Shown here one piece after another: positions 27,321 through 49,441 of a stretch of DNA of 64,000 nucleotides (position 1 is its first letter; every line of letters begins with the position of its first letter). The DNA lies in IMG/VR virus record IMGVR_UViG_3300035670_000160, positions 1 to 64,000 of that record. One strand, given 5' to 3'. The notes beneath the pieces are model-generated. The model was not told the origin of the DNA, ran no database searches, and was given only the letters and a program-made list of their open reading frames with translations. Source of the stretch: a virus. Made by a program: the position numbers and the translations under genes.

Positions 27321-27393
27321 TGCCGCCTACAGGACTTGAACCTGTGACCTCCTGTTTACAAGACAGGTGCTCTACCAACTGAGCTAAGGGGGC
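27321..27393 (-). tRNA. tRNA-Thr (anticodon UGU)
   Basis: Minus strand: acceptor GCCCCCT pairs with AGGCGGC (one C-C mismatch). The D-arm is TAGCTCAGTTGGTAGAGCA, the anticodon stem CCTGT/ACAGG with loop CTTGTAA, and the T-arm ACAGG-TTCAAGT-CCTGT. Discriminator A at 27321; CCA is not encoded. An extra 7-bp hairpin (ACCTACA/TGTAGGT) lies just downstream and may guide 3' processing. Confidence 0.9.
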
Positions 27394-27429: not shown

Positions 27430-28494
27430 TCAAGAAATATTTTGTAGGTGTCTTTTAATAGCGTCTGTAAATGCGATTGAGATTTGAGTGGGAACTGCGT
27501 TACCTATTTGGAGGTTCTTCTCACTTCGACTACCACAGAAGACATAATCATCTGGGAAACCTTGTATGCGCGCGCCCTCTCTTGTAGTGAGTGCCCTCTC
27601 TACAAGGGGGTGGATACACCTTGCTGATGAAGGTGTGCCGAAGTTGCGTGTGATTGTCGAACAAGGTCTATCCCACCAAAGTCGGGCATATCCATTAGGA
27701 AAAGACTTCCCGATTAGGTCATCTGCCGAGGGTACATCTTTACGAGAACCCCCAATCGGTAGAGCTTTCATGTAAGAAATAAAATTGCTGTTATGTCGAG
27801 GTGCTTCTTGGTCTAGTAAGAGAGAAGGAGCGTTTTTACGCATTACTTTTTGATATTCATTTTGGGGTGGTGTCGCATACTGATAGGCGACTTCGCCTGA
27901 CTTGACTAGAGGTAGGTCACTTAGTGCCTCAGACAGAGTGATGGCTTTCGTGTGTGTAGGCGAAGGAAATAAGAAAGGTTTTTTTGAACCCACTAGAAAT
28001 ATGCGTTCTCTTATCTGAGGACTTCCGAAATCAGTCGCTTTTAACAACTGATAACTTGTTATATAACCAAGCTCCTCTGCCTTAGAAATAATCTCCGCTA
28101 AGAGTTCCCCGCCTTGTATAGAAATAAGTCCCTTTACATTTTCAAACAGAAATAATTTTGGATTAAGTTCTTTTACGAGTCTGAAGTATTCATGGAAAAG
28201 AACTGCTCTGGGGTCATTTTCGGCTCTTTTACCTGAAGTTGAGTAGGCTTGACAAGGAGGTCCGCCGATGAGGACATCAACTTGGCTGACTTGGAAATCT
28301 TTTATGAGGTCATCTACACCGAAGTGTTTTATATCTTTCACATAGACTTTAGTGTGTGGGTGATTAAGAGAATAAGCCTTCGCCATATTTGGCAGTATCT
28401 CGTTAGCCGCGAGAATAACAAAATCATCATCGTGAGCGAAGCCATAGCTTAGTCCACCAACACCACAGAACAAATCTACTACACGATAGGTCAT
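27430..28494 (-). CDS. dcm: DNA (cytosine-5) methyltransferase, complete
   Basis: 354 residues. Motif I DLFCGVGGLSYGF (residues 7-19), IV GGPPCQAYS with catalytic Cys (about 78-86), VI ENVKG, VIII QIRERIFLVG, IX-like RIQGFPDDY and X QIGNAVP are all in the usual order. It transfers methyl from SAM to C5 of cytosine. The recognition site cannot be read. There is no adjacent nuclease. A divergent 56-base spacer separates it from the gene at 28551, and the two ribosome binding sites can partly pair. Confidence 0.95.
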   Translation of the reverse strand: MTYRVVDLFCGVGGLSYGFAHDDDFVILAANEILPNMAKAYSLNHPHTKVYVKDIKHFGVDDLIKDFQVSQVDVLIGGPPCQAYSTSGKRAENDPRAVLFHEYFRLVKELNPKLFLFENVKGLISIQGGELLAEIISKAEELGYITSYQLLKATDFGSPQIRERIFLVGSKKPFLFPSPTHTKAITLSEALSDLPLVKSGEVAYQYATPPQNEYQKVMRKNAPSLLLDQEAPRHNSNFISYMKALPIGGSRKDVPSADDLIGKSFPNGYARLWWDRPCSTITRNFGTPSSARCIHPLVERALTTREGARIQGFPDDYVFCGSRSEKNLQIGNAVPTQISIAFTDAIKRHLQNIS

Positions 28495-46169: not shown

Positions 46170-46242
46170 CTTCCCATCGTCTAGAGGTCTAGGACACCGC
46201 CCTTTCAAGGCGGGTACACGGGTTCAAATCCCGTTGGGAGGA
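46170..46242 (+). tRNA. tRNA-Glu (anticodon UUC)
   Basis: Acceptor CTTCCCA/TGGGAGG with one G-U pair, a D-arm typical of tRNA-Glu (TCGTCTAGAGGTCTAGGACA), anticodon loop CTTTCAA in a CCGCC/GGCGG stem and T-arm ACGGG-TTCAAAT-CCCGT. CCA not encoded. Confidence 0.93.
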
Positions 46243-46246
46243 CTAA

Positions 46247-46319
46247 GGGTTGTTAGCTCAGTAGGTAGAGCAGCGGACTTTTAATCCGTTGGTCTGGGGT
46301 TCGAGCCCCCAACGACCCA
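46247..46319 (+). tRNA. tRNA-Lys (anticodon UUU)
   Basis: Acceptor GGGTTGT/ACGACCC, D-arm TAGCTCAGTAGGTAGAGCA, anticodon loop CTTTTAA in a GCGGA/TCCGT stem, and a T-arm containing GGTTCGAGCC. Starts four bases after tRNA-Glu. AAA is likely a common codon in this A+T-rich genome. Confidence 0.95.
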
Positions 46320-46325
46320 TTACTT

Positions 46326-46408
46326 GCCGATATGGTGGAATAGGTAGACACAGGGGACTTAAAATCCCCCGACCAAAAGTCTTGCGGGTTCAAGTCCCGC
46401 TGTCGGTA
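46326..46408 (+). tRNA. tRNA-Leu (anticodon UAA)
   Basis: Acceptor GCCGATA/TGTCGGT, anticodon loop CTTAAAA in a GGGGA/TCCCC stem, a long variable arm (class II) and T-arm GCGGG-TTCAAGT-CCCGC. It reads UUA, a codon used very often here. Confidence 0.93.
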
Positions 46409-46412
46409 GTTT

Positions 46413-46494
46413 GCTCAGATGGCGGAATCGGTAGACGCGGCGGATTCAAAATCCGTTTCCTTCGGGAGTGTGGGTTCAAGTCCCATTCTGAGTA
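46413..46494 (+). tRNA. tRNA-Leu (anticodon CAA)
   Basis: Acceptor GCTCAGA/TCTGAGT, anticodon loop TTCAAAA in a GCGGA/TCCGT stem, a long variable arm TTTCCTTCGGGAGT and T-arm GTGGG-TTCAAGT-CCCAT. It reads UUG and complements the neighbouring UAA tRNA. Confidence 0.93.
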
Positions 46495-46500
46495 CTCAAA

Positions 46501-46535
46501 GAAACCCCCTAAGACCCCCCCTCTTAGGGGGTTTC
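46501..46535. terminator. Terminator after the tRNA cluster
   Basis: GAAACCCCCTAAGA (46501-46514) pairs perfectly with TCTTAGGGGGTTTC (46522-46535), then TTCTTCTTCC. In the other direction the hairpin also ends the minus gene, whose stop codon is within the stem. Confidence 0.85.
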
Positions 46536-46766
46536 TTCTTCTTCCTCTGCGTCTTCCAAAATCTCAATCAAATCACTATTTCTACCCTGCCTCGCTAGAT
46601 TAGAAAAAATAAAGTAAGAAATAAACCCAAGACCCATCCACTCAAAGCTACCTTCTAAGGGCATACACGCGATATATAAAAGCGCGGCTATGACCAAAAG
46701 ATAGAAGTTATTTCTCAGTCTGCTTTGTAGCTGTTTCGCTTTTATTAGAGACTTATTTCTAGCCAT
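46524..46766 (-). CDS. Small membrane protein with acidic tail
   Basis: 80 residues. A basic N-terminus (RNKSLIKAKQLQSRLR), two hydrophobic segments (NFYLLVIAALLYIACMPL and GLGFISYFIFSNLA) and an acidic tail (EEEEETP). The TAA lies in the stem of the shared terminator. Its start overlaps the divergent GIY-YIG frame. Function unknown; holin-like topology is possible. Confidence 0.5.
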   Translation of the reverse strand: MARNKSLIKAKQLQSRLRNNFYLLVIAALLYIACMPLEGSFEWMGLGFISYFIFSNLARQGRNSDLIEILEDAEEEEETP

Positions 46767-47127: not shown

Positions 47128-47135
47128 TCTGATAT
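47128..47135 (+). promoter_or_regulatory. TCTGATAT box upstream of the DnaJ-like gene
   Basis: TCTGATATGAAC is followed directly by CTCCT, which can pair with the RBS AGGAG (47151-47155). The ATG is at 47167. Confidence 0.4.
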
Positions 47136-47166
47136 GAACCTCCTGTCAAAAGGAGATGTAAATATC

Positions 47167-47631
47167 ATGCCTCAAATTTTAATCTGCACATCTTGCAATC
47201 TGCCCCATATTTCAGAGTACGCTAAGAAATGTCTTGTTTGTTGGAAGCGCGCGTCTGGCTTTGATTTAAGCAAAGCAGATTTAGCTCATGAGAGATTGGC
47301 TCAGGCTTTCTCAGAAGTTCTGAGTCAGTCTCAAAACACAACCTCTACTTCAAACCCAAATCTTCAAGCAGAGATAAATAAACTTCAAGCCGAAAATAAG
47401 AAGTTGGATGCCGAGAAATATGCTCTCATGATGCAGATTTCTCAGCTAAATGTCAAGATTTACACTATGGAGCATGAGGTGCGTGCCTTGAGGAATAACC
47501 CGCCCTCAAGCTCTGCCCTTCCTCAAGATAAGATTAAAGACCTTATTTCTTTGTGTCATCCTGACCGACATGGAAATAGCGCACTTGCTACTCAAGTCAC
47601 GCAATGGTTGCTATCTATCCGCAAGAAATAA
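47167..47631 (+). CDS. Zinc-finger/coiled-coil protein with J-domain-like end
   Basis: 154 residues from MPQILICTSC; the start at 47134 is too early for the AAGGAG. An N-terminal CxxC...CxxC pair (CTSC, CLVC) is followed by a coiled coil (INKLQAENKKLDAEKYALMM) and a C-terminal segment DLISLCHPDRHGNS with the His-Pro-Asp of DnaJ domains. Only helices around HPD are present, so it is a partial J-domain that may recruit host DnaK. The stop lies next to an octamer. Confidence 0.6.
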   Translation: MPQILICTSCNLPHISEYAKKCLVCWKRASGFDLSKADLAHERLAQAFSEVLSQSQNTTSTSNPNLQAEINKLQAENKKLDAEKYALMMQISQLNVKIYTMEHEVRALRNNPPSSSALPQDKIKDLISLCHPDRHGNSALATQVTQWLLSIRKK

Positions 47632-47664
47632 GGGTATAATCTTAATAATCTTCTCACCACAAAT

Positions 47665-49101
47665 ATGGAGTCTTATGTGGATAATTCCCAAGAACTTACA
47701 CACATCTCACTTTGTGCAGGATACGGAGGAATTGATATCGGACTTACAAGAGCAATCCGAAATGTGCGAACAATCGCTTTTAGTGAGATCGAATCCTTTG
47801 CCTGCGCGAACTTGGTTGCGAAAATGGAAGCAGGACTCTTGGACCCAGCTCCTATCTGGACGGATCTTAAGACCTTCCCATGGGGAGCTTTTCGTGGGAA
47901 AGTGGACATCTTGTCAGGAGGCTTCCCTTGCCAGCCATTTAGCACAGCAGGCTCTCGCAGAGGAGACGAAGACCCCCGACACCTCTTCCCCCATATCTTA
48001 CGAGGACTCCGAGAACTTGGAGGACCTCCCCTTGTTTTCCTCGAAAATGTCGAGGGAATACTCTCCTCAAAGCTCGCAGGAGAAGGGTGGAACGACCCAC
48101 AAGGCACTCCCGTTTTGCTTCATGTCCTTAGAGAGTTGGAACGATTGGGTTATAGCGCGACGGCAGGAGTATTCTCAGCGGCTGAAGTGGGTGCGCCACA
48201 TCAAAGAAAAAGAATCTTTATTCTTGGAGTCCGAACAGATATTGGAGATGAGGGGAGAAGGAGAGTCAACGAACTTTTGGCGCACTCCAACTGCCCAAGA
48301 GAGCGGACAAGAGGAGAACTTAACGGACAAGGATGGGTTGCCTTGGATGGGTCAGGGTCGTGCGTATCGGGCGAATGGAACCTTCAAGAGTATGACATTA
48401 AATCTACAGGTAGCCGCAGATGCGAAACTATGGGGGACTCCGAGAGTAGGGCTTTCAGCGGGAGGGGGGGGCAATCCCAACAGCAAAGAGTTTCCTTGCA
48501 GGCTAGAGAACCAAGTGCAGATGGCATGGCCGACTCCTACAACACAGGAGATTCCGCACTACGAGATGACGCTAACGCCAACGGGGAGGCGCGCAGGGGT
48601 GAGCGAGGGTGCGACGAGCCACGGCTTGAACTTATGGGACGCCGCGAGAACAGACCCGACTACTCAGAATTGGGCGACTCCAACGACAATGGATTATCTG
48701 CCACCGAGGGCAACGGAAGCATTAGTGCGTCAAGCGACAGGGTCGAGGAAGGGGAGGACTGCTCCATGTACTCTGAGAGAGCAAGTAGATCCCACCAGCT
48801 TAGAGATATACTCTTCTCTACTCAATGGTCCGCAGGAAGAGGATCACCTCAGTACTCTTGGGAACCCCCAAGAGTCACACCAAGAGGAAGTGACTCAGAC
48901 TCAGACTCAGACGGAGAAGGGATTCTTGAATCCTCGTTGGGTGGAAACCCTGATGGGGCTTCCTGTGGGATGGGTTATGCCCTCTTGTGCGTCAGTTTGG
49001 ACTCCAGAACTGATGAACTCAGACTTCTTGGGAACGGAGTCGTCCCCGCAACAGCAGAACGAGCCTTCCGAACTTTATGGCACTCCTTGTGTGGAGTCTG
49101 A
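47665..49101 (+). CDS. DNA (cytosine-5) methyltransferase, frame A
   Basis: 478 residues. Motif I LCAGYGGIDIGL, IV GGFPCQPFS (catalytic Cys), VI ENVEG, VIII HQRKRIFILG and, after a ~230-residue low-complexity Ser/Asp/Arg-rich target-recognition region, X LRLLGNGVVPATA. The ATG at 47665 has no RBS; a GTG at 47677 lies six bases after ATGGAG and is perhaps the true start. A second frame is open over the whole gene. A G8 run at 48474-48481 could shift translation into it. No octamers occur here, unlike the flanks, suggesting recent acquisition. Confidence 0.85.
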   Translation: MESYVDNSQELTHISLCAGYGGIDIGLTRAIRNVRTIAFSEIESFACANLVAKMEAGLLDPAPIWTDLKTFPWGAFRGKVDILSGGFPCQPFSTAGSRRGDEDPRHLFPHILRGLRELGGPPLVFLENVEGILSSKLAGEGWNDPQGTPVLLHVLRELERLGYSATAGVFSAAEVGAPHQRKRIFILGVRTDIGDEGRRRVNELLAHSNCPRERTRGELNGQGWVALDGSGSCVSGEWNLQEYDIKSTGSRRCETMGDSESRAFSGRGGQSQQQRVSLQAREPSADGMADSYNTGDSALRDDANANGEARRGERGCDEPRLELMGRRENRPDYSELGDSNDNGLSATEGNGSISASSDRVEEGEDCSMYSERASRSHQLRDILFSTQWSAGRGSPQYSWEPPRVTPRGSDSDSDSDGEGILESSLGGNPDGASCGMGYALLCVSLDSRTDELRLLGNGVVPATAERAFRTLWHSLCGV

Positions 49102-49441
49102 GGATGTGAAAAATTGGGCGACACCTACTACGAGAGATTATAAAGATGCTTCAAATCATCGTGCAAGAAGTCCGAGTAAGAATGGTGTTTGGGAGAGAAA
49201 CAACTCTCTTCCTACGCAAGTAGGCATGACAGAGAACTACTCTGGGGCATTAAATCCACGCTGGGTAGAGACTCTGATGGGGCTTCCTGTGGGGTGGACT
49301 ATGCCCTCCGCCAATTTAGAACCCCCCCCTCAAAGAACAACAGAAATAAAAAACACCAAGTCAACAGAAATAAAAAAGAATAAAACCAAGAAATCTCAAC
49401 ACTTAGACGGGCTACAGGGTCTATTTGAAGACGAGGATTGA
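47675..49441 (+). CDS. Overlapping frame B: second protein over the methyltransferase gene
   Basis: 588 residues from ATG 47675, two bases before the GTG of frame A (ATGTG); the frame is open further upstream to 47570. An N-terminal half reads TWLRKWKQDSWTQLLSGRIL, DLPLFSSKMSREYSPQSSQE and SLESWNDWVIARRQEYSQRL. The C-terminal half has WPTPTTQE, NWATPTTRDYKD and two copies of NPRWVETLMGLPVGW, motifs I associate with C-terminal parts of phage-type Dcm proteins. No stop occurs in over 1.8 kb. Of ten differing codons in the flanked duplication, all but one are synonymous in this frame. It has no catalytic motifs of its own. Confidence 0.6.
   Translation: MWIIPKNLHTSHFVQDTEELISDLQEQSEMCEQSLLVRSNPLPARTWLRKWKQDSWTQLLSGRILRPSHGELFVGKWTSCQEASLASHLAQQALAEETKTPDTSSPISYEDSENLEDLPLFSSKMSREYSPQSSQEKGGTTHKALPFCFMSLESWNDWVIARRQEYSQRLKWVRHIKEKESLFLESEQILEMRGEGESTNFWRTPTAQESGQEENLTDKDGLPWMGQGRAYRANGTFKSMTLNLQVAADAKLWGTPRVGLSAGGGGNPNSKEFPCRLENQVQMAWPTPTTQEIPHYEMTLTPTGRRAGVSEGATSHGLNLWDAARTDPTTQNWATPTTMDYLPPRATEALVRQATGSRKGRTAPCTLREQVDPTSLEIYSSLLNGPQEEDHLSTLGNPQESHQEEVTQTQTQTEKGFLNPRWVETLMGLPVGWVMPSCASVWTPELMNSDFLGTESSPQQQNEPSELYGTPCVESEDVKNWATPTTRDYKDASNHRARSPSKNGVWERNNSLPTQVGMTENYSGALNPRWVETLMGLPVGWTMPSANLEPPPQRTTEIKNTKSTEIKKNKTKKSQHLDGLQGLFEDED
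48926..49308 (+). repeat. Two direct 59-bp copies, 324 bases apart
   Basis: 48926-48984 and 49250-49308 differ at about nine or ten of 59 positions. Both encode NPRWVETLMGLPVGW in frame B. Differences are almost all synonymous in frame B but change residues in frame A. The first copy overlaps frame A; the second lies beyond its stop. Confidence 0.8.

Follow-up and report, generated by a model that had tools for sequence, protein, structure and literature searches.

A viral cytosine methyltransferase gene with motif IX and putative target-recognition modules in a second, overlapping reading frame

The multispecific methyltransferases of Bacillus phages SPR and phi3T carry several target-recognition modules in tandem between motifs VIII and IX; they are single-frame, single-chain enzymes whose targets have been tested. 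In M.AquI, the catalytic and recognition halves are placed on two chains, the smaller of which carries motifs IX and X. A different division is found in M.EcoHK31I and M.EaeI, where the genes for the two chains overlap, that for the small chain being in an alternative frame. The large (alpha) chain of M.EcoHK31I has motifs I–VIII and X together with the predicted target-recognition domain (TRD), and motif IX resides in the small chain (PMC3404938). Here we analyze a gene from a stretch of viral DNA of 64,000 nucleotides (hereafter, the window), which is part of the 70,956-base IMG/VR virus record IMGVR_UViG_3300035670_000160. The gene very probably encodes a 5mC methyltransferase split into alpha and beta chains in a manner resembling M.EcoHK31I, the beta chain holding motif IX and a shuffled array of several target-recognition modules.

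Two frames, A and B, run through the gene on the plus strand. Frame A, the alpha chain, extends to 49101 from either 47665 (an ORF of 478 aa) or the GTG at 47677, which is probably its better-conserved start. Its match to Pfam PF00145 (E 3e-34) is confined to residues 12–193. Motif I (AGYGGIDIG), motif IV with the catalytic Cys (GGFPCQPF, 47917–47940), motif VI (ENVEG, 48043–48057) and motif VIII (APHQRKRIF, 48193–48219) are followed by motif X near the C-terminus (LGNGVVP, 49027–49047). Frame A lacks motif IX, and the gene thus departs from canonical single-chain C5-methyltransferases, in which all motifs share one ORF. Frame B, the beta chain, is the +1 frame (47675–49441, 588 codons), which combines an array of W-x-T-P modules with motif IX and has a B-only tail past A's stop. 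Consistent with the long open frame reported in the initial annotation, the +1 frame is free of stops from 47492 to 49441; the conserved start of B is the ATG at 47675. Four W-x-T-P modules, which are putative target-recognition modules, occupy positions 48278–48922 of frame B (starting at about 48278, 48431, 48527 and 48671), and frame A reads this stretch as a weakly constrained linker. The array is followed by LNPRWVETLMGLPVGW (48926–48973), by a fifth module (YGTP.../NWATPTTRDYKD..., 49088–49249), which lies nearly entirely past A's stop, and by a second copy of LNPRWVETLMGLPVGW (49250–49297), found in frame B only. Based on the pattern L-x-P-R...M-G-x-P, the distance of about 25 codons to motif X in frame A and the matches to same-frame relatives, we read LNPRWVETLMGLPVGW as the missing motif IX. 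The initial annotation had correctly noted both occurrences of LNPRWVETLMGLPVGW, as well as WPTPTTQE and NWATPTTRDY, in B, but it had missed that motif IX is present in B and lacking in A. Since B carries the motif that A lacks, the two frames appear to represent complementary halves of one enzyme.

A Shine-Dalgarno-like GGAG (47667–47670) is placed to serve the starts of both frames. It is followed by the twin start ATGTG (47675–47679), in which B's ATG overlaps A's GTG, just as had been proposed initially. About 75 homologous loci share the twin start, either as ATGTGGAT, with overlapping ATG for B and GTG for A, or as ATGACATGG, in which the ATG of B comes first and the ATG of A next. Moreover, the N-terminus of frame B, W-I-L-P-K-Q-L-H-T, is nearly invariant among these loci. 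Retention of both the twin start and the constant N-terminus suggests that B is most likely translated from the 5' end of the gene.

When compared by motif layout as described, the window gene is similar to M.EcoHK31I (and M.EaeI) in having an alpha chain with motifs I–VIII and X but without IX, the latter being located on a second chain. However, M.EcoHK31I has its predicted TRD in the large chain, whereas the module array of the window lies in B and is conserved in B. Furthermore, window B starts at the 5' end of the gene, with a twin start, and has a second module and a further motif IX past the end of A. As in M.AquI, a catalytic half and a recognition half occupy two chains; however, motif X of the window is in frame A, and only some relatives have it on B. 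The M.AquI-like layout, with motifs I–VIII in A and modules, IX and X in B, is seen in Float294 (62/61), Upyo (54/53) and Camerico (38/39) and in viral loci L046, L056, L105 and L110. In these four loci and in L089, all of the window's own family, A stops soon after motif VIII; no motif X was recognized in L089. The closest annotated counterparts of the nesting are Paenibacillus Shelly gp55/gp56 (‘g55 internal gene’), Escherichia K1H ORF29/ORF28 (‘Mte8-like’) and K1ind2, which have the same +1 nesting, with motif IX in the inner and X in the outer frame. Unlike in the window, B starts internally in these phages, after motif IV, and the twin start is absent; their records annotate the nested genes and state no mechanism. 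In the window gene, modules lie in tandem, and are shuffled among relatives, between VIII and IX, in the manner of the SPR and phi3T enzymes; they may likewise be multiple TRDs.

When A's codons are shuffled synonymously with the A protein kept (500 shuffles), the +1 frame of the window gene is expected to contain 7.9 stops, yet none is seen, and the minimum among the shuffles is 2. In 11 further long ORFs of the window and in its second methyltransferase (12 ORFs in total) there is no such depletion, which together with the missing stops excludes chance. Relatives were collected by scans with A as the query, which yielded 104 viral loci and 80 loci in bacterial genomes, and public phages were added. 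The initial annotation had named stops in the B frame of homologous genes from related phages as a finding that would speak against its proposal. In 73 viral loci, with regions set by A's motifs and not by B's limits, 9 stops were found in the +1 frame versus about 355 expected: 5 versus 180 in the region of motifs I–VIII and 4 versus 174 between VIII and X. The number of +2 stops equals the expectation, and single-frame relatives, used as controls, display no +1 depletion. Thus, the stop depletion supports the initial proposal that two genuine frames overlap within a single cytosine methyltransferase gene.

The second C5-methyltransferase of the window (27430–28494, minus strand, 354 aa) is an ordinary single-frame enzyme with canonical motifs IX (TTREGARIQGFPDD) and X and has 23 stops in its +1 frame, as expected. 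It is adjoined by a tRNA-Thr gene (27321–27393). Four more tRNA genes (Glu, Lys, Leu, Leu) lie in a row at 46170–46495, upstream of the two-frame methyltransferase; an ORF at 46289–46603 that runs over three of these genes is probably their shadow. The ORF just upstream of the two-frame gene (47134–47631) is Cys-rich at its N-terminus and contains HPDRHG, a motif resembling that of J-domain proteins.

The location of selection along the gene was followed in pairs of homologues >80% identical, which are not mutually independent. Across motifs I–VIII, substitutions per site at the first, second and third codon positions of A are.07,.04 and.15; between VIII and X they are.26,.15 and.18; and from motif X on.19,.12 and.58. 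The peak thus falls on A third positions in I–VIII, moves to A first positions, which are B third positions, at the end of VIII, stays there through IX and returns to A third positions from X. In the 30 nucleotides holding most of motif IX, A first positions reach.26 and the other two are at zero, i.e. variation occurs only at B third positions. Between VIII and X, changes that are nonsynonymous in A and synonymous in B amount to.22–.30 versus.06–.15 for those nonsynonymous in both, B-silent, A-altering changes being two to three and a half times commoner than changes altering both. This pattern supports B-frame constraint across the VIII-to-IX stretch and agrees with the initial claim of purifying selection on frame B. 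In the I–VIII region, the codon-phase analysis reveals little constraint on the B residues themselves; that B nevertheless remains open beneath A's motifs would be explained by its translation from the 5' end. Synonymous divergence of A is.15–.31 in I–VIII versus.52–.58 after motif X, and in several of the same pairs it is also below that of flanking genes (about.4–.5). The low values concern L002, L008, L016, L019 and their relatives and could result from dual constraint or from recombination.

The A-B-A profile of codon phases would also fit programmed frameshifting, in which the ribosome shifts +1 from A into B after motif VIII and back before X to make one full-length methyltransferase. 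A natural in-frame A-to-B fusion does exist, in Paenibacillus alkaliterrae (L181:2489–3403), where motifs I–VIII are joined to B-type modules and IX, without X. Nevertheless, we consider frameshifting unlikely. Two shifts would be required, and each frame would be needed on its own side only, whereas both frames are open on both sides. Frameshifting leaves unexplained the near absence of B stops upstream of VIII, the openness of A across the modules in nested loci and the conserved B start codon beside that of A.

Selection on B had initially been deduced from a 59-bp repeat, whose two copies were said to differ almost only at B-synonymous sites while A residues change. The former part stands: of 9 differing sites, 7 are B third positions, all synonymous in B, and the other 2 form one codon (GTT/ACT), with P about 0.008 for the phase alone. 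The latter part does not, as copy 2 lies downstream of A's stop (49101); the copies therefore show that B is kept where A is absent, which is weaker evidence than was claimed.

Cutting at W-x-T-P-like anchors divided 128 B chains into 401 modules, 205 of which fall into 38 recurrent clusters. One and the same module type is found at differing positions and in arrays of differing length, and several types are also present in B-only tails, where no frame A overlaps. The fourth module of the window belongs to the largest cluster (23 members), of which the members in L002, L005, L089 and L105 are located past A's stop. The natural reading is that the array is a shuffled set of target-recognition modules.

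Whether relatives come from IMG/VR, from named phages or from bacterial genomes, their frame B is almost always the +1 frame. A strict motif classifier placed motif IX in the +1 overlap in 71 viral loci, 49 genome loci and 10 of 13 phages, where counts include duplicates and refer to loci, not to independent events. The classifier found motif IX in the +2 frame in two copies only, and at least one of these (L018) is frameshifted. In L018, the N-terminal frame of B continues into the frame of A's motif X, possibly due to a sequencing error or decay. Single-frame, nested and tandem-split relatives all occur. Mycobacteriophage ShiLan gp70 and several Streptomyces genes (L173–L197) have all motifs in a single frame, and in nested relatives from Paenibacillus, Lacticaseibacillus, Bacteroides and enterobacterial phages B starts inside A, after motif IV. 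In a Bacteroidetes genome, the methyltransferase is immediately followed, in A's frame, by another B-like ORF bearing motif IX (L161:3644–4210), in addition to the nested B. In Acidovorax phage Alfacinha3, the annotated methyltransferase gp46 (L031:2493–3659) is B and not the A frame bearing motifs I–VIII, an annotation error caused by the overlap. With frame B as the query, the search for close relatives in IMG/VR returned no matches, whereas frame A succeeded, the modules being too variable. L253 was the sole candidate for a standalone B gene on viral contigs, and its A frame appears to be interrupted or to contain an insertion.

B might instead function on its own, for instance in DNA binding or anti-restriction, without needing the methyltransferase, its overlap with which would be incidental. 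Indeed, B extends past A in several loci and forms a recurrent family of its own, phrog_1008 (‘DNA methyltransferase’), which matches window frame B with E 2e-13 and also takes in other B proteins (L171, E 6e-48; L008, 2.5e-24); the label is silent on its members being the other frame of a methyltransferase gene. However, B holds the motif IX missing from A, and single-frame relatives have B-type modules, IX and X inside the methyltransferase chain. Moreover, a scan starting from B found an overlapping frame A with motif IV in 69 of 73 viral loci, and 3 of the remaining 4 have motifs I, VIII and X. Independence of B is therefore even less likely than frameshifting.

An HMM built from nested B chains matches window B with 110.6 bits. 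The same HMM scores 36–57 bits against ShiLan gp70, whose recognition region lies in the frame of the other motifs, and against Toaka 82, Float294 61 and Upyo 53, which are the second genes of their pairs. That B is a compositional shadow of conserved A, or the gene a decaying frameshifted relic, is most improbable and largely refuted: part of the N-terminal similarity of B among relatives is imposed by A, and the HMM weakly matches 188 of 2000 shadow frames made with the A protein kept, but the best of these reaches 29.3 bits, with no shuffle among the top rows, the stops predicted by synonymous shuffling are missing, VIII–X evolves on B codons, A does not extend over the tail of B, and conservation of the state spans phyla.

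Pfam and NCBIfam did not recognize the IX region, even in single-frame relatives, and the B profile found no relative among solved structures. An A-to-B fusion, constructed with one four-letter frame-shift word (GTCA=V) at 48265, was modeled with AlphaFold; only the A part folded, and pLDDT is about 30 over most of B. VIA-align set the whole fusion model on M.HhaI, and the resulting placement of motif IX was discarded because pLDDT is <50 there. For the B chain of relative L184 modeled alone (67-row alignment), mean pLDDT is 61 and pTM 0.26. Given the low confidence of the B models, AlphaFold gives no support for a target-recognition fold.

The alpha/beta split reading is based on computed results, namely, the maintenance of both frames, the location of selection, the complementarity of motifs, the homology between B and the target regions of same-frame relatives, and the shuffling of modules. 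From these we infer the translation of B, the assembly of alpha with beta, target specificity and use against restriction. One ribosome-binding site and the overlapping twin start codons would initiate both chains. Alpha would bind AdoMet and perform catalysis with motifs I–VIII, also contributing motif X, and beta would recognize DNA through the module array and provide motif IX, the two chains assembling into one active enzyme. The first ~150 residues of B, beneath A's motifs, and A's linker, beneath B's modules, would be passenger stretches, kept open by the need for alpha to reach X in frame A and for beta to extend from the 5' end. The phage would use the enzyme to mark its own DNA against host restriction, and swapping of modules among phages could alter the methylated sites and thereby allow escape from other restriction enzymes.

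From the sequences collected, the arrangement appears to be common to hundreds of phages and prophages, and previous descriptions of it seem to be mostly isolated annotations. Literature searches, in which subscription journals were mostly outside coverage, found no paper on the nested-frame class; its undescribed status is therefore provisional. A broader proposal falls just short of being probable: the gene may represent a large class of 5mC methyltransferases, found in phages and prophages and dual-coded over nearly the whole gene, with shuffled recognition cassettes in the hidden frame, and the second module and motif IX past A's stop in the window may be an alternative recognition half for the same catalytic chain. 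Gene finders usually keep one of two overlapping frames, so that half of a common phage enzyme is lost or labeled hypothetical, and target specificity cannot be predicted from the kept frame alone. If confirmed, the arrangement would be among the longest and most widespread cases of same-strand dual coding in phages, with both frames contributing to a single enzyme. The arrangement would likewise supply natural, ready-made recognition modules for sequence-specific cytosine methylation and account for the speed with which phages could change their methylation pattern.
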